The position numbers and the translations under genes are program-made. This document shows positions 982-19,277 of a stretch of 19,277 bases of DNA, piece after piece. This DNA is from Cyanobacteria bacterium UBA11370 (GTDB lineage Bacteria > Cyanobacteriota > Cyanobacteriia > Cyanobacteriales > Coleofasciculaceae). Position 1 is the stretch's first letter, and every line of letters starts with the position of its first letter. The DNA lies in the NCBI GenBank assembly GCA_003486645.1, contig DNGI01000314.1, positions 1-19,277 of the forward strand, in the 5' to 3' direction. The notes below the pieces were generated by a model. That model worked only from the letters and a program-made list of their open reading frames with translations. It was not told the origin of the DNA and made no database searches.

Positions 982-1090
982 AATGCTAACAATTGCTAAC
1001 ATTTCTTCCTCCTTCAACCTGGGGATGACGGCATCCTTCCAGTCCAGAGGCGATCACGGTCGATCTGACCGCTAATTCTAAATTGAGCGA
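982..1090 (-). ncRNA. Candidate omega RNA (reRNA) at the tnpB 3' end
   Basis: TnpB guide RNAs normally overlap the 3' end of tnpB and run out through the element's right end. On the minus strand there is a strong hairpin at 1019-1042: outer CTGG/CCAG and inner GGATG/CATCC arms closed by a CCGT tetraloop, with a 2-nt AA bulge. It lies within the last codons of tnpB. The 22-nt near-palindrome at 982-1003, with wobble pairs, spans the tnpB stop and could be the right-end hairpin. By analogy with characterised systems, the guide would be the flanking DNA beyond about 980, which here is the ctaA leader. Extent and existence are inferred from structure and position only. Confidence 0.4.
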
Positions 1091-2149
1091 GGCATTTAAA
1101 TCTCTATCGGACTGAAACCCACACTCCGAACAGCAGTAAGTTCGTTCAGCTAAAGACAATGATTCTTTTACTGTTAAACAGTTAGAACAACGTTTACTAC
1201 TGGGAAAGAACCTGTCAACTACAACCAACTTACTTCCGTACAGCTCACATTTATATTCTAGTTGCCGACGAAACTCGTAAAATCCCCTATCCGCGATCGC
1301 TTTAGCTAGCTTATGATTCGCCAGCATCCCAGATACATTCAAATCCTCTATCCCGATAACAGCGTGGTTCTGACTGATATAGGTTGTGATTTTGTGCAAC
1401 GTATCCTTGCGGATGTTGGCTATTTTTCTGTGCAGCCTAGCTACCTTGAGTTGAGCTTTCTTGTAGTTTGAAGAATGGGGTTGTTTATGACGGTTAAGCC
1501 CTTGAAGACGAGCGAGTTTCTTCTCGTATTCAATGTAGGCTCTAACACCATCAAACACTTCTCCTGTCGAGAGTGTAGCCAGATGGTTGATGCCCAAATC
1601 CACTCCAACCACATCGACTTTTTTCTGAGTTGGTTTCGGTTCAACTTCAATTTTGAACGAAATGAACCAACGGTCAGCCGTCCTAGAGATCGTCACAGAA
1701 GAAGGTTTTATTCCCTGTGGCAGTCGCTCATAGGTTTTTATCCAGCCAATGACCGGAACTTTAATCTTTCTAGGGTCAACTGTTATGCTGCCATCTAATG
1801 TAAACGAATCTCCTCTGCCTTTTTTCTTAAACCGGGGAAAACCTCCTTTCTTTGAGAAAAATCGCTTAAACGCATCAGCTAGGTGTCTCAACGCATACTG
1901 TGGAGCGCACTTGGACACTTCGTAATACCACTCAAATCGAGGCTTCACTAAGGCAACCAGCCATTTATGTAAGTCGATTGCCGTAGGAAACTTGATTTTC
2001 TCTTCTGGGCGATGCGAGTTGTTGTCCAAGATTTGCTGACACAATCCCAATGCCCAGTTGTACGCATGACGAGCAGTACCAGCGTGTTTAGCCAGTAGTA
2101 GTCGTTGAGAAGAATTAACTTTGAGTTCGGTCTTGAATGCCATTATCAT
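986..2149 (-). CDS. tnpB: TnpB-family RNA-guided endonuclease (OrfB)
   Basis: The 387-residue protein is near the usual TnpB length of about 400. It has an N-terminal OrfB helix-turn-helix-like region (FKTELKVNSSQ) and a RuvC-like nuclease with its three acidic positions intact: D184 in GVDLG, E268 in IGIEDLN and the DRDLNAS motif (D348/D350). A four-Cys zinc finger (C321, C324, C340, C343) lies before the last acidic residue. TnpB proteins are RNA-guided DNA nucleases that help retain IS200/IS605 elements. Nothing here looks broken, so the protein is probably active. Start choice: ATG at 2149 or ATG at 2143; both are preceded by the 10-bp inverted repeat shared with the divergent RHH gene. 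The 3' end overlaps a candidate guide RNA. The gene contains one HIP1 octamer (1293), suggesting long residence in cyanobacteria. Confidence 0.95.
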   Translation of the reverse strand: MIMAFKTELKVNSSQRLLLAKHAGTARHAYNWALGLCQQILDNNSHRPEEKIKFPTAIDLHKWLVALVKPRFEWYYEVSKCAPQYALRHLADAFKRFFSKKGGFPRFKKKGRGDSFTLDGSITVDPRKIKVPVIGWIKTYERLPQGIKPSSVTISRTADRWFISFKIEVEPKPTQKKVDVVGVDLGINHLATLSTGEVFDGVRAYIEYEKKLARLQGLNRHKQPHSSNYKKAQLKVARLHRKIANIRKDTLHKITTYISQNHAVIGIEDLNVSGMLANHKLAKAIADRGFYEFRRQLEYKCELYGSKLVVVDRFFPSSKRCSNCLTVKESLSLAERTYCCSECGFQSDRDLNASLNLELAVRSTVIASGLEGCRHPQVEGGRNVSNC

Positions 2150-2805: not shown

Positions 2806-3831
2806 GTGAACATTCCAAGTAACATTGCGACTCTAATTGCAGGCATTGCCCTAACCTTAGTCAGTCTGTGGTACGGTCAAAACCACGGACTCATGCCAGT
2901 CGCCGCCTCTGAGGAAGCGACTCAGGTAGATGGGATATTCCGTTTAATGATGACTGTCTCCACTGGTTTATTTTTGCTGATTCAAGGCGTGCTAATCATT
3001 TCGCTGATCAGATTTCGCCGCCGTAAAGACGACCAAACCGACGGTCCACCGATTGATGGCAATATACCGTTAGAAATTCTGTGGACAGCGCTCCCCGCTG
3101 TTATCATCATGATCCTCGCTGTCTATAGCTTTGAGGTCTACAATAACATGGGTGGACTCGATCCCATGGCATCTCACGACCACTCCCACCCACAGATGGC
3201 GCACGCTCATAAAACCCCATCGTCCAATCGAGAAGCCGATAAAAGTCTGATTGCCTTTGATCCGGGTCAGGATGCGATCGCCCTCGGTTTAGGTGCGTCT
3301 CCAGATAAAGAAGGTCAAAATCCAGCCCTAACGGTTAATGTTATGGGTTTACAATATGCCTGGATTTTTAGCTACCCCGATACAGGTATATCCTCTGGAG
3401 AATTGCATATCCCTATTGGGCAAGAAGTCCAGCTTAACATTGCGGCTCAAGATGTTTTGCACGCCTTCTGGCTACCCGAATTTCGGATTAAGCAAGATGC
3501 TATCCCCGGACGAGATTCTCAATTACGCTTTACAGCCAGTAAAGTGGGTCAATACCCAATCATTTGTGCTGAACTTTGTGGCGCTTACCACGGCGCGATG
3601 AAAACCCAGCTTTTTGTTCATACTCCAGAAGAGTATCAGGCATGGGTTGAACAGAATCAAATTGCTAGTGCTGAGGGTGTTCAAGACACAGTAGCGCTAA
3701 ATCCGGCTGAACGATCAGACGATGAGTTTTTAGCTCCTTATGCTGAACAAATCGGGATTGATTCTAACATCATCAAGCAGCTCGATGTCTCACACCATCC
3801 TGCCACTCACTCAATAGCGATTAGCAATTAG
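2806..3831 (+). CDS. coxB: Cytochrome c oxidase subunit II (CuA subunit)
   Basis: Subunit II takes electrons from cytochrome c6 or plastocyanin and passes them to heme a in CoxA. The 341-residue protein has an N-terminal hydrophobic segment (7-23) and transmembrane helices at about 45-68 and 88-109. A cupredoxin domain follows with all CuA ligands: H219, C254, E256, C258, H262 and M265, the last five within CAELCGAYHGAM. The heme-proximal LEILWTALPAV signature is present. The start is GTG at 2806, giving MNIPSNIATL, the usual cyanobacterial N-terminus; there is no good Shine-Dalgarno. A His-rich loop (about 124-135, HDHSHPQMAHAH) follows the second helix of the hairpin and could bind metal. 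First gene of coxB-coxA-coxC. Confidence 0.97.
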   Translation: MNIPSNIATLIAGIALTLVSLWYGQNHGLMPVAASEEATQVDGIFRLMMTVSTGLFLLIQGVLIISLIRFRRRKDDQTDGPPIDGNIPLEILWTALPAVIIMILAVYSFEVYNNMGGLDPMASHDHSHPQMAHAHKTPSSNREADKSLIAFDPGQDAIALGLGASPDKEGQNPALTVNVMGLQYAWIFSYPDTGISSGELHIPIGQEVQLNIAAQDVLHAFWLPEFRIKQDAIPGRDSQLRFTASKVGQYPIICAELCGAYHGAMKTQLFVHTPEEYQAWVEQNQIASAEGVQDTVALNPAERSDDEFLAPYAEQIGIDSNIIKQLDVSHHPATHSIAISN

Positions 3832-3999
3832 CGTTAAAGCGGTTTCGGCGATCGCTCTAGTACCAAAAGGCAGAGGGCAGAAGGTAGAAAGGCTTATTTT
3901 TTCTACTATTGGCTCCGTTGTTAACGGGTCACTTATTTCCGCCATGCTGTACTAGGCTTGATCACTCCCAAATCTTTGCATCCAAACATTCAAAATTCC

Positions 4000-5685
4000 A
4001 TGACGACTCAAGCAGAAAATATCGAATCCGTCAAGGCTTCTGGTCATATTTCCGAACCACGACAGCGGCAATGGCGAGATTATTTTACGTTTAATACTGA
4101 CCATAAGGTGATTGGCATTCAATACCTAGTCACCTCGTTTTTGTTCTATTTAATTGGTGGCGCACTAGCAGCCATGATTCGGACTGAATTAGCCACACCA
4201 GAACCGGATTTTGTCAGTCCAGAAGTTTATAACCGACTGTTTACCATGCACGGGACAATCATGATTTTCCTGTGGATTGTTCCGGCGGGTGCTGCCTTTG
4301 CCAACTACCTGATCCCCTTAATGGTGGGAGCAGATGATATGGCATTTCCGCGACTGAATGCAGTAGCCTTTTGGATCACACCTCCAGGCGGGTTACTGTT
4401 ATTAAGTAGCTTTTTCTTTGGTGCGCCTGAATCCGGTTGGACTTCTTACCCACCGTTGAGCTTAGTTAGTAGCCAAGTCGGTGAGGGAATTTGGATTTTT
4501 AGTCTGCTGCTAATCGGAACGTCTTCTATTTTGGGGGCGGTTAATTTTCTCACCACTATTTTAAAGATGCGGATACCCAGCATGGGGATAAATCAAATGC
4601 CCTTATTTTGTTGGGCGATGATTGCCACATCCGCTCTCATTCTGCTGTCTACTCCAGTTCTGGCATCAGCACTAATTCTGCTTTCATTTGACTTAATTAT
4701 TGGCACCAACTTCTTTAATCCAGCAGGAGGAGGCGATCCAATTGTTTACCAACATATGTTTTGGTTTTACTCCCATCCGGCAGTTTATATTATGATTCTG
4801 CCGTTTTTTGGGGTGATTTCAGAAGTGCTGCCTGTCCATGCTCGTAAGCCAATTTTTGGATATCGCGCGATCGCCTATTCAAGTCTGGCAATTAGTTTTT
4901 TGGGCTTAATTGTTTGGGCACACCATATGTTTACCAGTGGAACTCCAGGCTGGTTACGGATGTTTTTCATGGTGGCAACGATGATTATTGCTGTACCCAC
5001 TGGAATTAAAGTTTTTAGTTGGTGTGCCACTCTTTGGGGCGGCAAAATTAATCTAAATAGCGCCATGATCTTTGGCATGGGGTTTATTTCTGCCTTTGTG
5101 ATCGGGGGGTTGAGCGGCATTATGGTGTCGTCGGTACCGTTTGATATTCACGTCCATGACACCTACTTTATTGTGGCTCATATGCACTACGTTCTGTTTG
5201 GAGGTAGTGTCTTAGGTATCTTTGCTGGGTTCTATCATTGGTTCCCGAAAATGACAGGGCGGATGCTTAACGAAACGTGGGGAAGAATTCACTTTGTCCT
5301 AACATTTGTTGGTTTGAATCTGACGTTTTTACCCATGCACGAATTGGGTTTGTTAGGCATGAATCGCCGAGTGGCTCTGTATGATCCACAATTTCAAGAT
5401 TTGAACGTCCTCTGCACAGTTGGTTCGTATATTCTGGCTGTTTCTACGTTCCCCTTTATCATTAATGTACTTTGGAGTTTAGTACGGGGTGCTAAAGCCG
5501 GACGTAATCCTTGGAGGGCGCTTACTCTAGAGTGGCAAACTACTTCTCCTCCAGCCATTGAGAACTTTGAAGAGGAACCGATTTTGTGGTCAGAACCCTA
5601 TGACTACGGCGTAGATAGTCATCGCTTTGATAGCGACCAACCCATTGAAGAAATACTGGCTGAAGTGAAAGCTGATGTTGGGTAA
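4000..5685 (+). CDS. coxA: Cytochrome c oxidase subunit I (aa3-type, heme-copper family A)
   Basis: Catalytic subunit of 561 residues with about 12 transmembrane helices, reducing O2 to water and pumping protons. Ligands visible: low-spin heme a H84 and H396; heme a3 H394; CuB H259, H308 and H309; and Y263, the Tyr normally cross-linked to the CuB His. The D-pathway Glu of GHPEVY is absent. The motif reads YSHPAVY, with Y257-S258, which is the signature of A2-type oxidases. The K-pathway Lys is likely K337 in PTGIKVFSW. I start at ATG 4000 (MTTQAENIE) rather than TTG 3958, whose extra 14 residues do not resemble the family. No clear Shine-Dalgarno. It lies 168 bp after coxB. Confidence 0.97.
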   Translation: MTTQAENIESVKASGHISEPRQRQWRDYFTFNTDHKVIGIQYLVTSFLFYLIGGALAAMIRTELATPEPDFVSPEVYNRLFTMHGTIMIFLWIVPAGAAFANYLIPLMVGADDMAFPRLNAVAFWITPPGGLLLLSSFFFGAPESGWTSYPPLSLVSSQVGEGIWIFSLLLIGTSSILGAVNFLTTILKMRIPSMGINQMPLFCWAMIATSALILLSTPVLASALILLSFDLIIGTNFFNPAGGGDPIVYQHMFWFYSHPAVYIMILPFFGVISEVLPVHARKPIFGYRAIAYSSLAISFLGLIVWAHHMFTSGTPGWLRMFFMVATMIIAVPTGIKVFSWCATLWGGKINLNSAMIFGMGFISAFVIGGLSGIMVSSVPFDIHVHDTYFIVAHMHYVLFGGSVLGIFAGFYHWFPKMTGRMLNETWGRIHFVLTFVGLNLTFLPMHELGLLGMNRRVALYDPQFQDLNVLCTVGSYILAVSTFPFIINVLWSLVRGAKAGRNPWRALTLEWQTTSPPAIENFEEEPILWSEPYDYGVDSHRFDSDQPIEEILAEVKADVG

Positions 5686-6467: not shown

Positions 6468-6493
6468 GGACTTTTCTCCTTTTCGTTAATATC

Positions 6494-6518
6494 AAGCCTC
6501 CATCTGGGGGCTTTTTTT
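6494..6518 (+). terminator. Rho-independent terminator after coxC
   Basis: Arms AAGCCTCC (6494-6501) and GGGGGCTT (6506-6513) pair over 8 bp with one G-T wobble around an ATCT loop, followed by a run of T through 6518. It lies 27 bp after the coxC stop. Confidence 0.85.
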
Positions 6519-6567
6519 ATAGTTCTACAATTGACTGAAGTGAATACTTCACGGAGTTATAGATAGT

Positions 6568-6602
6568 GCTAATAGCTAATAGGTAATAGCTAATGGCTAA
6601 TT
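6568..6602. repeat. Heptamer tandem repeat (GCTAATA)x5, imperfect
   Basis: Five consecutive 7-bp units: GCTAATA, GCTAATA, GGTAATA, GCTAATG, GCTAATT. STRR-like; it abuts the MITE-like element that starts at 6607. Confidence 0.8.
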
Positions 6603-6606
6603 GCTC

Positions 6607-6726
6607 ATACCAAATCCGGTTAATACACCCTCTTTAATTAGATTTGCCAAAATCTACGTAGAGACGTTGCATTGCAACGTCTCTACCATTGATCCTAAAA
6701 AAGGATTTTTAAACCGGATTTGGTAT
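6607..6726. mobile_element. MITE-like element with 15-bp terminal inverted repeats and an internal palindrome
   Basis: ATACCAAATCCGGTT at 6607-6621 and its exact reverse complement at 6712-6726 bound a 120-bp non-coding unit. Near its centre (6658-6686) is a 29-nt palindrome, GTAGAGACGTTGCA-T-TGCAACGTCTCTAC. The same palindrome occurs alone at 11406-11434. No coding capacity and no obvious target duplication at the ends. The nested symmetry fits a miniature inverted-repeat element or a dispersed structured repeat of the kind common in cyanobacteria. Confidence 0.6.
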
Positions 6727-6764
6727 CATTATTCAAAAGCGGTTAATTGTTACCCATCGAACTT

Positions 6765-7730
6765 TCATGATTCCTGACTCCTGACTTGTGAATTCTTACC
6801 TGTATTCTTCCAATGCCTGACACAAGGAGCTAAAGTAATTAAGTCTTCAATATTCCGTTGCATGGTCATGCAAATAGTATCTAAAGGTAGGTCATTCGCA
6901 TCATAACCAAAGGGATTTTCAATTTCAATACCGATTTCTTCAATACCTAATAAGGTGAAACTTACTAAACTAACTATCAAAGCTGTCCACCAGGTAAAGT
7001 CTTTTACAATTTCAAAGGGAAGGGTTAGGCAATAAATCAATAATAACTGTTTAAGATGAATGGCATAGGCTAAGGGAATTGGCGTTTTTAAAATCCTTTC
7101 ACAACCCCCTAATACATCAACCATTTCATCCAGCAATTTAAGCATTGCAGTAAGCTGATAGGTGTTGAGACAGCCCCGTTCGTGTTGTTGCTGGAGATAA
7201 TCGCCAATCCAAAAGGCAATTTCTAGAGGTGGGTGGTTCATCGTCTTTAGTTTTTCATAACAATCGACTGGAACTAATGCCTCTAATTCAGCATTCAAAG
7301 GTTCTGACCTCAGATGTAACTTCGTAGCAACAGCAAAGGCTACTAATAAACGCAATGTAGCAATTTTATTGGTTCTATCTTCTGGTGTATTTTCGGCGAT
7401 CGCTCCCCAAATTTGACGAGCAAAGTTGCGAACTGTATTGATTAAATTTCCCCACAGTTTGCGACCCTCCCAAAATCGCTCATAAGCAGTATTGGTTCTG
7501 AAAACTAACAGTAATCCCAAGACAATACTCGGTACAATTCCACTCAAACGTGACCAAGCTATAGAAGGATGATAGTGATAAAGTATCGAAATCAGAAGAC
7601 CAAATCCCCCGCAAAAAATGACTCTTGGTAAAATGCCTGGTATAACTGAGCCTTGCCATTGTAAAGCGACTTGAAACCAAGTCCATTTTTTCCAATTCGT
7701 ACTATTATTTCCAAATTTAATATTAGGCAT
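6765..7730 (-). CDS. Bestrophin-family anion channel-like membrane protein
   Basis: The 321-residue membrane protein matches the bestrophin/RFP-TM family (UPF0187, YneE-like). It has a first hydrophobic pair, the signature RTNTAYERFWEGRKLWG at about 78-94, later hydrophobic segments at about 226-262, and the C-terminal NPFGYDANDLPLD at about 273-284, equivalent to the conserved bestrophin NPFGxDxxD region. Bacterial relatives form pentameric ion channels. In cyanobacteria a thylakoid chloride or bicarbonate role has been discussed, but nothing here decides the ion. I use ATG 7730, which has GGA six bases upstream; GTG at 7742 would add four residues. It is monocistronic and its 3' end points towards coxC. 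Confidence 0.88.
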   Translation of the reverse strand: MPNIKFGNNSTNWKKWTWFQVALQWQGSVIPGILPRVIFCGGFGLLISILYHYHPSIAWSRLSGIVPSIVLGLLLVFRTNTAYERFWEGRKLWGNLINTVRNFARQIWGAIAENTPEDRTNKIATLRLLVAFAVATKLHLRSEPLNAELEALVPVDCYEKLKTMNHPPLEIAFWIGDYLQQQHERGCLNTYQLTAMLKLLDEMVDVLGGCERILKTPIPLAYAIHLKQLLLIYCLTLPFEIVKDFTWWTALIVSLVSFTLLGIEEIGIEIENPFGYDANDLPLDTICMTMQRNIEDLITLAPCVRHWKNTGKNSQVRSQES

Positions 7731-13073: not shown

Positions 13074-13679
13074 CTAAAGTAACCAACTACTTTTGGCAAA
13101 ATCAGCAGGCTTGTCGCTTTCTTTTTGTACGGGTCTTCCTAACTGTCGAACTGGACTCTGAGTTGGTGTTTCTTTGACAGATTCGTTTCCTTTTTTTAGT
13201 AGCTCAATTTCTTTGGTTAGTTTTTCATTGGCTTGTGCCAGTTGTACAGCAGCATTTTTAGCTTGCTCAAACTCTGTTTTTAACTTATCAATTTTCTCTA
13301 ACTCTTTTTGTAGTTTCTCGAATGATTCTTTTTGGTGTTGCAAATCGCTTTGTAAATTTGTAACTTGTTCTTGTAACGAGCTTTCTTTTGTTTTTGCTTC
13401 CTCTAGAGCATCTTTCAACTCAGCTAATGTTGTTTCCCGCTGCTGTGCTTCTTCTAAAGCCGCTTTCAATTGAGTGACAGTTTCTTCTAATTCAGCCTTT
13501 GTCGCCGTTGATGGTTTAGCATTGGCTCTAGTTCGTGTATTCATAACCGATTCCTCTATTGCTTCAGTATCCTGTTCTAAAACCTGTTCTGGTGTCGTTT
13601 CTTGAACAGTTTCACCTTCAGGTTCTGGTGATTTGTCCACCTCTTCTCGTAATAAGTCTGTTAAACGTTTTTTAACCAT
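13074..13679 (-). CDS. mcdB: Coiled-coil partner of the ParA-type ATPase, McdB-like (type 2)
   Basis: The 201-residue protein has a short basic start (MVKKRLTDLL), an acidic disordered stretch (about 13-45), a basic patch (NTRTRANAKPSTATK, 47-61), a long continuous coiled coil (about 62-165) and a disordered tail ending FAKSSWLL. McdB proteins, which coat carboxysomes and stimulate the ATPase McdA, are small and disordered with a coiled coil. They carry an invariant Trp within the last few residues; here it is W199 of 201. The gene lies 83 bp downstream of a small ParA ATPase on the same strand, the mcdA-mcdB order. ATG 13679 has AGGGGAAAC upstream. No carboxysome gene is in the window, so the assignment rests on architecture, the C-terminal Trp and pairing. 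A generic plasmid ParB is unlikely because no HTH is seen. Confidence 0.65.
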   Translation of the reverse strand: MVKKRLTDLLREEVDKSPEPEGETVQETTPEQVLEQDTEAIEESVMNTRTRANAKPSTATKAELEETVTQLKAALEEAQQRETTLAELKDALEEAKTKESSLQEQVTNLQSDLQHQKESFEKLQKELEKIDKLKTEFEQAKNAAVQLAQANEKLTKEIELLKKGNESVKETPTQSPVRQLGRPVQKESDKPADFAKSSWLL

Positions 13680-13762
13680 TAATCTGTTTCCCCTTTAGTT
13701 TAGCGATCGCTAGCCTTCAAATACTCACCCAAATAAAATTTCTGATCTTGAATTTTGTTAGC

Positions 13763-14428
13763 CTAGCCCATTTTGAATTTTGAATTTTGAATTACTTCCC
13801 TTTCCCAATCACGTTGTAGTTCATCTGCCACACGACAGTAATCTGCTTTAGCTTCACGAGCATTTTCTCCTCGCCATCGCGTAATTGGAACCCCTTGAAG
13901 TGCAGCGCGTTCGTGAGCCTTGTAAGATCGAACAAACGCATGAAATACCGGAACACCCAATTCCTGAAGGGTACTTTGCGCCTCCAATGCTTCCCTGAGA
14001 CTACGAGAATCTACCCGCGTCAGCAACACCCGATGAGTCGTTCCCACAGGCGCGATCGCTTTTCGGACTGTTTCGAGTAATACAGCCAAGTCCATTGGTG
14101 CAGGGGGTGTAGGTAAAACGATATAATCTGCGATCGCCGCCACTGCTGCTAAAGCATCGGAGTGTAGCGCTGGAGGCGTATCTACCACAGCTAACTCATA
14201 CCCTTTAATTTTCCGTAAACGACTCAAAAGCTTTGGATTGGTTTCTTGAGCAACATCAAAACCCATCACCCCCTCACCCCGTTCAGTCCACCAGGTTGCC
14301 GAACCTTGCGGATCAGCATCCACCAGCAGGACAGGTTGTTTATCCGACAGCGCGGCGGCTAAATTAATTGAGGTAGTGGTTTTCCCAACGCCTCCCTTAC
14401 CATTAATAATTGCGATGATGCTTGGCAC
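13763..14428 (-). CDS. mcdA: ParA/MinD-type ATPase, McdA-like (type 2)
   Basis: The 221-residue ATPase is a short ParA without an N-terminal HTH. It has a deviant Walker [12 protein letters not shown] (signature K11, K16), the [11 protein letters not shown] switch region (about 37-47) and a Walker B-like VVDTPP (81-86). Such proteins bind the nucleoid non-specifically in the ATP state and position cargo. With its coiled-coil, C-terminal-Trp partner it fits McdA, which distributes carboxysomes. The retained signature Lys indicates type 2 rather than the Synechococcus elongatus type 1. The start is GTG 14428, with GGA about 10 bases upstream. The last codons (QNSKFKMG) are encoded by a heptamer repeat array, so the C-terminal tail is probably repeat-derived. 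A ParA of other function remains possible. Confidence 0.7.
13771..13791. repeat. Heptamer repeat (TTTTGAA)x3 inside the mcdA 3' end
   Basis: Three perfect copies of TTTTGAA overlap the final codons of the ParA-type gene and specify its NSKFK tail on the minus strand. Confidence 0.8.
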
Positions 14429-14697: not shown

Positions 14698-15891
14698 CTA
14701 GGCTTCAATTTTGGCGATCGCATCTTCTGGCGATAACTCCCCCTCAACCACTGCTTTAATTCCAGGCAGGTATTCATCCATCATTGTTACGTTGGCGTAA
14801 ACCAACTGCCTAATTAATGCTGATGTGAGTCTGTCTCCTTCTACATCAATACTGGTTTTGTAGCGAATTTCGCCGTCGGTGAAATCTAATTCAAAGTTGC
14901 CGATAATCATGCCATAATTAGCTCTGGCTATAAATTCTCCTACAGCCCGACGCTTGGGTTTTGGTACTTTGATGGGGCAAATCGAATAAAAAGCGAATTG
15001 TTTCTGTTCTTCTCTAGCTTTGGCATAACACTGCCATCTCCCATTGTCTCCCTCAAAAGCGAGGTTTAAAGATAGTTCTCCTTGAATTTTAGTAAAAGCC
15101 CAATCATCTTCTGTAAAAAAGTTGACTATCGCCTGAAAAATTGGCGGTGTTGCCGTAGGATTTTTAGATCTTGATTCTGAATGGTATTCGGTTAGTTCTT
15201 GAAATAAGTTGGATACTGCCTCCAGAGTTTCAGTGGCTAATTCTTTTGTCGTTGCACTGAGACTACCACTGACTAAATCTTTGAAGAAGTTGGTGAGGCT
15301 TTCCGATAGATTTTCACTGGAAAGTCCTTCTCCTGAAAGTGCTGTTGGATTAACATAAGACCAAAATGTTTGGTAGCCTGTTTCACCCGATTTCTGTTGT
15401 TGTTTAACGGATAAGGCTAACCAACTTTCAGTAGAGAGTAGGGAGTATGGGGATTTGGGATTTTCAGGTAGTTCGTTAGTTTTTCGTGTTCCTGATTTTT
15501 CGTTAGTAGATTCGGATAGTAATTCAGGTTGTTGTTGACTGAGGTTTAAAAGGTAGGCGGCTGCTTCATCAGCGTTGCTGGCATTTTCTAGGAGGAGGGG
15601 AAGTAAGTCAGGTTTGAGAATAGTTTCGATTTGGATATTAGATGAGGGTTGGAAGTCGCCAGCGGAGAGTAAACCACGTATTTCGGGTTTGAGGTTGAAT
15701 AAGGCTTCGGTGTCGATGCGTTTGTAGAGTTCGGGGGTTACGCTGAAGGTGAGGTGACAGTTGATGATTTCCTCATCTTGTTGGGTTAGGGATAGAGTGA
15801 AAGTGTGAACAGTTAGGGAAGATTGAGAGGTGTCGCGTAGGGTTAACTCTCCTTCTAATTGCAATTGGAAATGTTCAATAGTATTACTCAT
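14698..15891 (-). CDS. Unknown N-terminal region fused to a C-terminal YbjN domain
   Basis: The protein has 397 residues from ATG 15891; a TTG at 15900 would add three. Residues about 251-395 look like a YbjN-type domain: FFTEDDWAF, GRWQCYAKAREEQKQFAFYS, ANYGMIIGNFELDF and EIRYKTSIDVEGD, followed by LVYANVTMMDEYLPGI. The YbjN fold is related to type III secretion chaperones. Residues 1-250 are not recognised: a beta-rich start (about 1-120), then a Ser/Glu/Asn-rich low-complexity region. Free-standing cyanobacterial YbjN proteins are about 150 residues, so this is an unusual extension. It is the third gene of the toxin-like locus, 89 bp after the putative immunity gene, which suggests a chaperone or adaptor for the secreted protein. 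The domain call is good; the role is inference. Confidence 0.75.
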   Translation of the reverse strand: MSNTIEHFQLQLEGELTLRDTSQSSLTVHTFTLSLTQQDEEIINCHLTFSVTPELYKRIDTEALFNLKPEIRGLLSAGDFQPSSNIQIETILKPDLLPLLLENASNADEAAAYLLNLSQQQPELLSESTNEKSGTRKTNELPENPKSPYSLLSTESWLALSVKQQQKSGETGYQTFWSYVNPTALSGEGLSSENLSESLTNFFKDLVSGSLSATTKELATETLEAVSNLFQELTEYHSESRSKNPTATPPIFQAIVNFFTEDDWAFTKIQGELSLNLAFEGDNGRWQCYAKAREEQKQFAFYSICPIKVPKPKRRAVGEFIARANYGMIIGNFELDFTDGEIRYKTSIDVEGDRLTSALIRQLVYANVTMMDEYLPGIKAVVEGELSPEDAIAKIEA

Positions 15892-15980
15892 CTTGAGCAA
15901 GAGTTTTTGGTGAATTGTCAGTTAATTTTGGTCAGACATTCGGGAAATTGTAGGTTTTTATCTGCTCAAATAAGATCCAT

Positions 15981-16361
15981 TTATTCTGACAAATCCAGTC
16001 CAGCTTCACTTAATTTTTCATTCATTTCAGGAATATACCATTCGTTACTATCTACTCTAGTTAAAACTCCTAAAATATACTCACTTATATCAATTACTTT
16101 GTCACCCCAAGGTATTTTTATATTCTCAGGAACATCACCTGTTAATCTATAATTCCTTATCTGTCTTTCTGGTAAATCAGGATAGTAATTTAACGTAATC
16201 CACATTCCCAAAATTTCTGTCTCTAAAGCTTCATCACCTTCAAACTCATCAGCTTCTGATTGAGTAAAAATGCAATTTAAAGCCTTGCTGACTCGTAAAC
16301 CTATTTCTTCAAGATTGGCTGTATCATTTATCCTAATTTGAAAATTTACTTGGGTATTCAT
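15981..16361 (-). CDS. Small acidic protein, putative immunity protein
   Basis: The 126-residue product is strongly acidic and soluble, with no signal peptide or membrane segment and no family I recognise. It has a beta-alpha style pattern (NFQIRIND, GMWITLNYYPDLPE, RNYRLTGDVPENI). It starts at ATG 16361 with AGGAAG upstream and lies 21 bp after the stop of the large carrier-toxin-like gene, hence the same transcript. A small acidic unknown directly downstream of a polymorphic toxin is the standard position for the cognate immunity protein. Its base composition (28% G+C in 16021-16080, counted by hand) matches the adjacent toxin tip rather than the carrier. That the gene is real is likely; the immunity role is inference. 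Confidence 0.75.
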   Translation of the reverse strand: MNTQVNFQIRINDTANLEEIGLRVSKALNCIFTQSEADEFEGDEALETEILGMWITLNYYPDLPERQIRNYRLTGDVPENIKIPWGDKVIDISEYILGVLTRVDSNEWYIPEMNEKLSEAGLDLSE

Positions 16362-16382: not shown

Positions 16383-19277
16383 TTATTTTATTTTTGGGTC
16401 TTTAATAATTAAAGGATTGCCTATAGACGCATCTTGGTCAATGTTTCCTGCAAGTTTTTGATCTCTTTTAATAGAAGAGCTGACATTTTCATCAGTACGA
16501 ATAAAAACATTAAATCGAAACATCTCTTCTCCAACATCTCTGTTGCCTGATATTTGAGCTAGTTCTTTACGCATATCCCAGATTATTTCATTAAATCCTG
16601 GTATCTTACTTTTTGATCCTACTATCTCTCCTGGTTTACGGACTACAGCACCGTTTTGCAGTGCTTGCCTATACAGTGCATCACTCTTGACATAAGCATC
16701 AATGTCAAAATCTGTTGGATTAAACACATAAGGTTCCCCAGAAGGTGAACGTTTTTTAGGATTCAGCTTAACACCTGATGCTAAACTTCCCTTAACATGA
16801 ACTTCTGCCTTTGAATCTAAAGCTTGGAATCTAGGAATGAATTGTTGCATTTTGCTTTGTACTTCTTCTTGCTTAGCTTTCCAGGCTTTTTCCCAGTCTT
16901 CATTTGCCTGTGATAGAGTTATGTCGGGAGTTTTATTTTCAGGGTTAACCTTGCCTTCTACATGATATGTAGTATCGCCAGTCTTCACTAATTCAAGTGA
17001 AGTAAGTTTATACGCCGATTGAATGGCAGGCAATTTTGCCTTGATGCTATCAGGCGTGGCATCGCTTTCTCGCATTAGTTGAGTTGACTTGTTCAAAGCT
17101 TTACCAAGGTCAGCTTCCTTCTCTTCTTTCGTCCGCTCATCGGGTTCACCTTCCTCACCCTCCTTATCCTTACCTTTCTTACCCTTATTCCCCTTAAACA
17201 AACTCTTCGCCTTCTGAAGAACCTTATCAATAGCCTGATCAATCCGATCGCGCACCTTCTTAACAATATCCTGCACCTTCTTCGCCAAGTCACCAATACC
17301 CAGCAACGAAGCCAAGAACCCAATCGCCACAGGCAACGACTTCGCTAGTGCATTCTCTACCAACTTCGCCGCACCACCCACAGCACCAGAAGCGATTTGC
17401 ACCACCGCATCAGTAATCGCATTCACCAGTTCCATCACCTGGCTACCCTGGTTAATAAAGAACATCACGATGTCATAAATCGCCATCGCCGCCTTCACAA
17501 ATGCTGAAGCCGGATTCAACAAACCAATAATCCATTTCACCCCAGCGGTAATTACCTGGGTGATCAGCATACTCTTAATTTCTTCAATTACCGTCTCCTT
17601 CAAGTCACCAAACTGTTCTTGAACCTGCTCCCACAGTCCCATCGGTCCTTTATTAGCAATAATCTGGAATATCTCAACCGTTTGCTCCATCCCAGCAACT
17701 ACAGGTTCAGTGAACATTTTCACTGCCTTAGAACGGATATAATCCCAAGTCAGCCCTAGTATCTGTGTTACCAAACTGAAGATACCTTGGAGGCTAAAAA
17801 TATCATCTGGTAATTGAATACCCAATCCTCCCATCGCACCCGTCAGCCAACCAATTAGACCCGTTTGCAAGTGGGTCATAATGTTAGTAACAAAGTTATC
17901 TAAACCTTGGCGAATCCCACTGATCAGATTACCCAAGAAACCAATCGGGTCTAATATAATCTTGTCGAGCGCGCTAGCTGCTTTAGCCAACACGCCCATC
18001 AGCATATCCTTGAGTTTATTAATACTGTCGATCGCCCCAGCCATTGCATCAAAGGCTTGAGCAAACCAAGGTTGATTCGATGCCTTCATCTCGTCAATCT
18101 GAGCATCAAGTTGCTGGAGGTTCTCAGTATATTGTTGAGCTAGGGTATCAACTAATTGAGTCTCTTTATCTTTAACACTCTGCTCTAATTCATCAAACTT
18201 ACTTTGAATATTCTGTGCAGCTTCCGTTCCTATCTGCTGAAGACCTTCCGGCAACCCTTTAACATACTCCTGAATTTTCTGTCTGCCTTCATCAATTTTC
18301 TGTTTCGCCTTGTTGAGTTGCTCGGCAACATAATTAGCAATACCCGTTAGGGCTGTATCCATCTCCTGGCGATAGAGATTCCGTCCTTTATCAAAGAAAG
18401 CTGTAACTTCTGGTGGCACACCAAACAATTTGTCTGTTCCCCAACGAATCAAACCGTCTGGTCCTTCATACCGCTTCATGTACTCTTTCATGTAAGGAGC
18501 CACATACTCCTCAAATTTTTTCTTAGCGGTATCACCAGCTACCTTAAATCGGTCAGTAACTTCTTTATCTAAACCATCCAGAATGCCTTCAACATCTTTT
18601 TTCGTATTCTGATAAATGCCATCAATATCGTTGGCAATTTTAGTCCGTTCCTGCTCATCCTTGGTCTTCGTTTCATCCTGCTTCCCCGTTACTTGGGTTA
18701 ACAGTTGCTCCCGTTGACCGTGCATTTCCTCTAACTGGGTTTGACTGGTTGTCTGTGCCTCAGTTTGCGCCTGGTTTAAGGTCGCTTGTTCCTGCTGACG
18801 ATACTCCTGTGGAGCCTCAACTGCCTTAGTTTGAGCGTCTTTCTTCGCTCCCACAGCTTTGAGAAACTGGGGTTCATTAGACTTCGCCAGTTGTTCTTCA
18901 GTAACCTTACCTTCAGCCATTTGCTGGTCAAGCTTTTGGCTCTCTGCTTTCATCGGTGCAGATACCTCAGTTTCCGGCTTAGGCTTGGGTGTCGCTTGAG
19001 CCGCGCCAATATCAGGCGGTTTGGCTCCCGCTTCCGGCTTCTCTAAGGGTTTAACCTCTTTGGGTTTAATACCACTGGTATCAGGGGCTTCCTTGGTTTT
19101 GTCTTCAACGGGGCCAGCCGCTTCCTTTGCTGCGTCTTTAGCTTGAGTTGATAGGGTTTCACTAACGGAACTCAGCAGATTACTATCCTTAAATTTGTCA
19201 GCATCTTCCAGGGTTTTAGGCGCAGTTTGGTCAACTTTTTCCATCACCGCCCTCTTGAAAGCCTCAGCATTGAACGT
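16383..19277 (-). CDS. Contractile-injection-type polymorphic toxin carrier with nucleotidyltransferase-like C-terminus (5' incomplete)
   Basis: The frame is open from the stop at 16383-16385 to the window edge, with no stop before 19277, so the 5' end is missing. GTG 19247 and ATG 19244 are internal candidate starts. Numbered from 19247 there are 954 residues: a Lys/Glu/Pro/Gln-rich disordered start (1-130), coiled coils (about 130-240 and 300-400) and an Ala/Gly/Leu/Ile-rich amphipathic helical carrier (about 400-690). A highly charged linker (GNKGKKGKDKEGEEGEPDER, about 695-720) and a C-terminal module follow. The module has VKGSLASG (G820-S821) and TDFDIDAY (D846, D848, D850), matching the GS and DxD elements of nucleotidyltransferases. 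The carrier resembles segments of DUF4157-linked proteins of extracellular contractile injection systems. The target is unknown. A putative immunity gene and a YbjN-domain gene follow. Confidence 0.75.
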   Translation of the reverse strand, partial: TFNAEAFKRAVMEKVDQTAPKTLEDADKFKDSNLLSSVSETLSTQAKDAAKEAAGPVEDKTKEAPDTSGIKPKEVKPLEKPEAGAKPPDIGAAQATPKPKPETEVSAPMKAESQKLDQQMAEGKVTEEQLAKSNEPQFLKAVGAKKDAQTKAVEAPQEYRQQEQATLNQAQTEAQTTSQTQLEEMHGQREQLLTQVTGKQDETKTKDEQERTKIANDIDGIYQNTKKDVEGILDGLDKEVTDRFKVAGDTAKKKFEEYVAPYMKEYMKRYEGPDGLIRWGTDKLFGVPPEVTAFFDKGRNLYRQEMDTALTGIANYVAEQLNKAKQKIDEGRQKIQEYVKGLPEGLQQIGTEAAQNIQSKFDELEQSVKDKETQLVDTLAQQYTENLQQLDAQIDEMKASNQPWFAQAFDAMAGAIDSINKLKDMLMGVLAKAASALDKIILDPIGFLGNLISGIRQGLDNFVTNIMTHLQTGLIGWLTGAMGGLGIQLPDDIFSLQGIFSLVTQILGLTWDYIRSKAVKMFTEPVVAGMEQTVEIFQIIANKGPMGLWEQVQEQFGDLKETVIEEIKSMLITQVITAGVKWIIGLLNPASAFVKAAMAIYDIVMFFINQGSQVMELVNAITDAVVQIASGAVGGAAKLVENALAKSLPVAIGFLASLLGIGDLAKKVQDIVKKVRDRIDQAIDKVLQKAKSLFKGNKGKKGKDKEGEEGEPDERTKEEKEADLGKALNKSTQLMRESDATPDSIKAKLPAIQSAYKLTSLELVKTGDTTYHVEGKVNPENKTPDITLSQANEDWEKAWKAKQEEVQSKMQQFIPRFQALDSKAEVHVKGSLASGVKLNPKKRSPSGEPYVFNPTDFDIDAYVKSDALYRQALQNGAVVRKPGEIVGSKSKIPGFNEIIWDMRKELAQISGNRDVGEEMFRFNVFIRTDENVSSSIKRDQKLAGNIDQDASIGNPLIIKDPKIK

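Follow-up and report, generated by a model that had tools for sequence, protein, structure and literature searches.

Is the long open frame that runs off the end of a cyanobacterial contig a toxin for delivery by an extracellular contractile injection system (eCIS), and does the gene beside it protect the producer? The window analyzed here, 19,277 nucleotides, is the entire contig DNGI01000314.1 (C443) of Cyanobacteria bacterium UBA11370 (assembly GCA_003486645.1; 7.13 Mb, 550 contigs, 88.5% complete). Its terminal frame encodes a carrier, a linker, and a C-terminal tip, and is followed by a gene for a 126-aa acidic protein and a gene for a YbjN-like protein (Table 1). We consider that these form a three-gene effector cassette for an eCIS-delivered nucleotidyltransferase toxin with cognate immunity, with a rough probability of 0.72. 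The long protein would be the cargo of a contractile injection system, docked to or in the tube by its N-terminus and coiled carrier, as we infer from relatives and the literature. The tip would transfer nucleotides inside the target, with tRNA or protein as the favored acceptor, while the 126-aa protein would bind and block the tip in the producer. The YbjN-like protein would accompany such carriers more generally and plausibly help to load them as a chaperone. The computation shows fold resemblance, conserved motifs, linkage of tip and partner, and linkage to eCIS genes in a relative, while delivery, toxicity, nucleotide transfer, protection, and the chaperone role are inferred. Since seven long proteins carry the tip, a tip profile matches 23 proteins, and all 26 aligned rows keep the GS and DxD motifs unchanged, the pattern of a toxin-like carrier with a tip and a neighboring gene is confirmed as real and beyond chance.

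Fold and conserved motifs of the tip

The structure model of the tip has a predicted local distance difference test (pLDDT) score of 96.7, and its best computed fold matches are nucleotidyltransferases, but weak ones. A preliminary description, made from the letters of the window, had proposed a nucleotidyltransferase-type tip, and the model bears this out to that extent. Its hypercharged linker followed by a 150-residue module holds as to order, but the module spans about 185 residues and the linker 65. The motifs it placed at residues 820-821 (GS) and 846-850 (DFDID) are the same as ours at 830-831 and 856-860, since it counted from a GTG at 19247 and we count from the start of the 964-residue open frame.

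GS, both Asp residues of DxD, and one nearby Ser are invariant in all 26 rows of the alignment A3, which includes the window but neither P0016, a fragment of the same tip, nor the P0002-P0004 tips, which are in alignments A1 and A2. GS and DxD fall on the structural elements expected for the Pol-beta nucleotidyltransferase superfamily in the model and the alignment. In the scans made, no Pfam or NCBIfam model scored above its cut-off for the tip family. Matches to Pfam NTP_transf_2 (PF01909)/MNT were weak and limited to 5 of the 26 sequences (best E 0.0082; 16.7 bits for P0024 against a cut-off of 21), and the GSX10DXD spacing of that family was not found. The spacer from GS to DxD is 18-27 residues long in the tips versus 10 in four nucleotidyltransferases of the same genome.

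This extended spacer would also suit a catalytically inactive nucleotidyltransferase fold that serves as a binding module, perhaps for nucleotides or nucleic acid, with any toxicity exerted through sequestration. So would the putative third-carboxylate position, by our own assignment on the strand FNVFIR, which is Asn in 14 of the 26 rows, Thr in seven, and Asp in just two. However, GS and both Asp residues of DxD are invariant across eCIS and RHS proteins, and a dead enzyme needs neither, while class II CCA-adding enzymes function with two carboxylates. We therefore regard an inactive tip as quite unlikely.

Distribution of the tip and of its carrier

A search with the last 195 residues of the frame found the seven long tip proteins, P0001-P0007, the first being the full-length form of the protein in the window. 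The 23 profile matches include the fragment P0016 and short forms in Nostoc (P0008 and P0010). The RHS core scores above the NCBIfam cut-off in the tip proteins P0022 (Serratia fonticola) and P0030 and under it in P0024 (Brevibacillus), and P0028 (Brevibacillus) is an RHS protein by source annotation. Since eCIS-core and RHS proteins both end in the tip, a single tip is borne by different carriers. Judged from the genomes searched, the tip is rare in cyanobacteria, occurring in two of 388 genomes of the order (this genome and a relative, G468) and in three of 386 of the phylum (this genome and two marginal matches with E ~1e-3).

The carrier without the tip has matches in 10 of 19 genomes of the family, this one included (22 rows). 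Pfam scans of 10 of the 15 other carrier C-termini (all except L047, L049, L050, L057, and L059; for L044, the last 102 residues) identified the NS_2 nuclease in two, CdiA-CT RNase A in one, Ntox4 in one, and GH-E in one above and one below the cut-off, and gave nothing for four. The linker RTKEEK...GKVNPENK also precedes different tips in relatives, such as L042, L043, and L053, and the variable part thus starts right after it. As in polymorphic toxins, the same carrier is found with varied tips, and the same tip on eCIS and RHS carriers.

Tip-specific downstream gene

The small acidic gene that the preliminary description saw just downstream of the frame is present as described. Its family comprises seven proteins and occurs in two of the 388 genomes of the order, the same two as the tip, directly downstream of it in both. 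Such a tip-specific gene immediately downstream is a further mark of polymorphic toxins. The other nine carrier-bearing genomes of the family, in which the first-look candidates were partly scored, yielded no match to the tip or to its partner. P0002 and P0032, both of Microcoleus vaginatus, are each assigned to a 42192-bp contig.

We surveyed the genes downstream of 14 carriers, the one in G468 and 13 from the 22 rows above (window included), choosing next genes by a simple largest-open-reading-frame rule. The nearest following frame of at least 70 aa lies on the same strand in 14 of 14 cases; one gap measures 260 bp and the other 13 measure 6-75 bp. When the last 150 residues of all carriers were compared with one another by BLAST, four of 91 pairs were linked, and a separate comparison of the next genes linked the identical four, namely the window with G468, and L098, L099, and L104 mutually. 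Joint inheritance of tip and neighbor accounts for these shared pairs, which are no proof of immunity. Of the genes that follow NS_2 tips, two match SUKH-1 under the cut-off, and the one at a third such locus (L100) is YbjN-like.

Because of the tip-specific linkage, we read the 126-aa protein as the blocker of the tip, and on this sequence evidence the gene probably protects the producer. It might instead encode a tip-specific chaperone or loading adaptor of an eCIS aimed at eukaryotes or at the producer's own filament. Many and indeed most antibacterial eCIS toxins have no recognizable immunity gene (PMC8213781), and the thylakoid-anchored contractile injection system (CIS) of Anabaena, with two DUF4157 proteins, fires at lysis or ghost-cell formation, its target not having been found (PMC8894136). 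Against such an adaptor, RHS-core proteins end in the same tip, the sibling tips are CdiA-type RNase A, Ntox4, GH-E, and NS_2 nucleases, two of the latter with the sub-threshold SUKH-1 neighbors, and a more general companion, the YbjN-like gene, already adjoins. We consider this alternative rather unlikely. The tip-specific partner and the RHS-borne relatives point toward antibacterial use.

At another tip-bearing locus, on an Eleftheria terrae plasmid (L062), an unannotated 127-aa acidic frame at 6471-6854 overlaps the end of a LysM protein with the tip; it is possibly an immunity gene from another family.

Carrier and association with eCIS genes

The preliminary description recognized that the frame leaves the window, and P0001, encoded on a 24735-bp contig that apparently belongs to another assembly, supplies the missing part. 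It is 1520 aa long, is 100% identical over the 195-residue query, and extends the open frame by 556 N-terminal residues. A paralog on contig C361 comes closest to the missing N-terminus in this assembly (75% over residues 1-338). Since the window ends short of the region where eCIS_core (PF13699/DUF4157) would sit, we judged this domain on P0001. It scores well above the cut-off in four of the seven long tip proteins (P0002-P0005), and no match up to E 1 was found in P0001, P0006, or P0007. In the alignment, P0001 retains the domain tail TDTVQQNG only, with repeats of DPVRNSLNLFKAQTIQR where the remaining domain would be and no HELTH motif. By this alignment, the protein appears to have lost most of DUF4157 and to keep an alignable remnant; the DUF4157-like domain that the preliminary description thought might lie upstream is present in close relatives but degenerate in P0001.

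The genome contains seven eCIS_core and three tube matches. Contig C504, separate from the window, carries sheath, tube, AAA, Pvc16, spike OB, gp25, and baseplate J genes, in line with the eCIS payload proposed earlier. The two outcomes named in advance as refuting a delivered toxin, a fold other than a nucleotidyltransferase and a genome lacking eCIS genes, were not seen, although the fold resemblance is weak. In G468, the genes for effector, partner, and YbjN-like protein come after an AAA ATPase gene and share one strand with the eCIS genes. Spike, tube, and sheath homologs lie within 20 kb on the AAA ATPase side of the effector, and gp25 and baseplate J homologs lie about 13 kb off on the other side, the intervening genes being partly annotated.

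The degenerate eCIS_core of P0001 could also mean that the protein is a surface or cytoplasmic one merely resembling eCIS cargo. Likewise, no eCIS structural gene was recognized by eye among the window frames, three of whose proteins were scanned with Pfam. But the closest relatives carry eCIS_core, and the G468 effector adjoins eCIS genes, which makes a non-cargo protein very improbable.

YbjN-like companion gene

The YbjN-like protein shares 58% identity with its counterpart in G468. Since it has matches in 100 of the 388 genomes of the order, some over the C-terminal part alone, it is not tip-specific. The seven matches in this genome represent four genes, on C443, C14, C361, and C57, each sharing contig and strand with a carrier or eCIS_core gene. 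None was found on the eCIS_core contigs C516, C504, C203, C533, and C20 or the carrier contig C439, several of which are short. A YbjN-like gene is present at 10 of 12 carrier loci, a count biased by the selection of nine of the 11 loci L095-L105 for such a match on the same contig; we therefore rely on this genome. Judging by these positions, the protein is plausibly a general carrier companion and a candidate loading chaperone. A literature search found no paper pairing "YbjN" with "contractile injection", and the name YbjN is absent from PMC8213781.

Between carrier and YbjN-like gene, XisH/XisI-like genes were seen by eye in L096 (3473-4980), L101 (6142-6758), and L102 (5307-5648 and 11179-11526). 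XisH and XisI have been termed eCIS cloud domains (PMC11297309).

Relation to known systems

The eCIS-associated toxins (EATs; PMC8213781, PMC11297309) share with the close relatives DUF4157, and with this protein a very long linker and a C-terminal toxin-like tip; some have immunity genes, as predicted here. They differ in that the copy studied here has a degenerate DUF4157 and its cassette adds a YbjN-like gene. The main texts of the two papers do not contain the word "nucleotidyltransferase". By description, the Sle1-type tape-measure-like effectors of Streptomyces CIS (PMC13277306) are similar, with a coiled-coil carrier, a variable C-terminal domain, and in one case a toxin-antitoxin pair; they lack DUF4157, whereas the close relatives here fuse it to the carrier. 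MenT toxins (PMC10435456, PMC11541572) likewise combine a growth-inhibiting nucleotidyltransferase with a partner protein but, as described, belong to toxin-antitoxin modules that act in the cell encoding them, whereas the domain here tips a carrier. Their acceptor is tRNA (PMC10435456); that of the tip could likewise be tRNA, or else a protein or a small molecule. RelA/SpoT-like polymorphic toxins, already published (PMC3482391), have a predicted Pol-beta-related fold as a delivered tip, as here, but GSLAxG...DFDID and the longer spacer set this tip apart by motif description. Among the literature matches listed, chiefly outside subscription papers, we met no such tip on an eCIS or RHS protein.

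From its sequence, we class the protein as an eCIS polymorphic toxin whose tip family lacks a Pfam or NCBIfam model above the cut-off in our scans. The targets of cyanobacterial contractile injection systems are the context in which it is of interest. If active, the tip would bring a nucleotidyltransferase-type activity into the eCIS repertoire; tip and partner are a small cloneable pair, and the YbjN-like companion opens effector loading to testing. More tentatively, and at somewhat less than even odds, the tip may represent an unnamed toxin family common to eCIS and RHS weapons, whose members would be nucleotidyltransferases with two carboxylates and a lengthened GS-DxD loop. Cyanobacterial eCIS would then carry a standard cassette in which tip and immunity gene are swappable and accompany a carrier and a fixed YbjN/type-III-chaperone-like loading factor, and such eCIS would be antibacterial weapons with dedicated effector chaperones.

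Features of the window and a second carrier

Table 1 Features of the proposed effector cassette in the window (residues counted from the start of the 964-residue open frame).
Feature	Position	Strand	Remark
C-terminal 964 residues of the 1520-aa eCIS-type carrier protein	16383..19277	-	Open frame exits at contig edge
Carrier, disordered/coiled-coil and amphipathic	17136..19277	-	Sub-threshold Apolipoprotein match, residues 303-413
Pre-tip linker RTKEEK...GKVNPENK, 65 residues	16941..17135	-	Found before other tips in relatives too
Predicted nucleotidyltransferase-fold tip, 185 aa	16386..16940	-	Structure model and fold matches
Invariant GS motif, residues 830-831	16785..16790	-	Alignment, 26/26 rows
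DFDID, residues 856-860	16698..16712	-	Second and third Asp invariant, 26/26 rows
Strand FNVFIR	16497..16514	-	Putative third-carboxylate position, Asn here; our own assignment
126-aa acidic protein; predicted role, cognate immunity	15981..16361	-	21 bp downstream of carrier frame, pI 4.2
400-aa protein, C-terminal YbjN domain (PF10722)	14698..15900	-	36.1 bits versus cut-off 22

A second carrier of this genome (L032, contig C439, 1-3672) has a different tip and is followed by a gene for a 613-aa protein (3723-5564). Contig C439 opens with the very codon at which the window breaks off, which suggests an assembly break at a repeat. By eye, a ParA-like ATPase and a 201-aa coiled-coil protein are encoded just downstream of the effector cassette (13074-14428, minus strand), and a transposase-like OrfB/TnpB protein (986-2149, minus strand) adjoins cytochrome oxidase genes.
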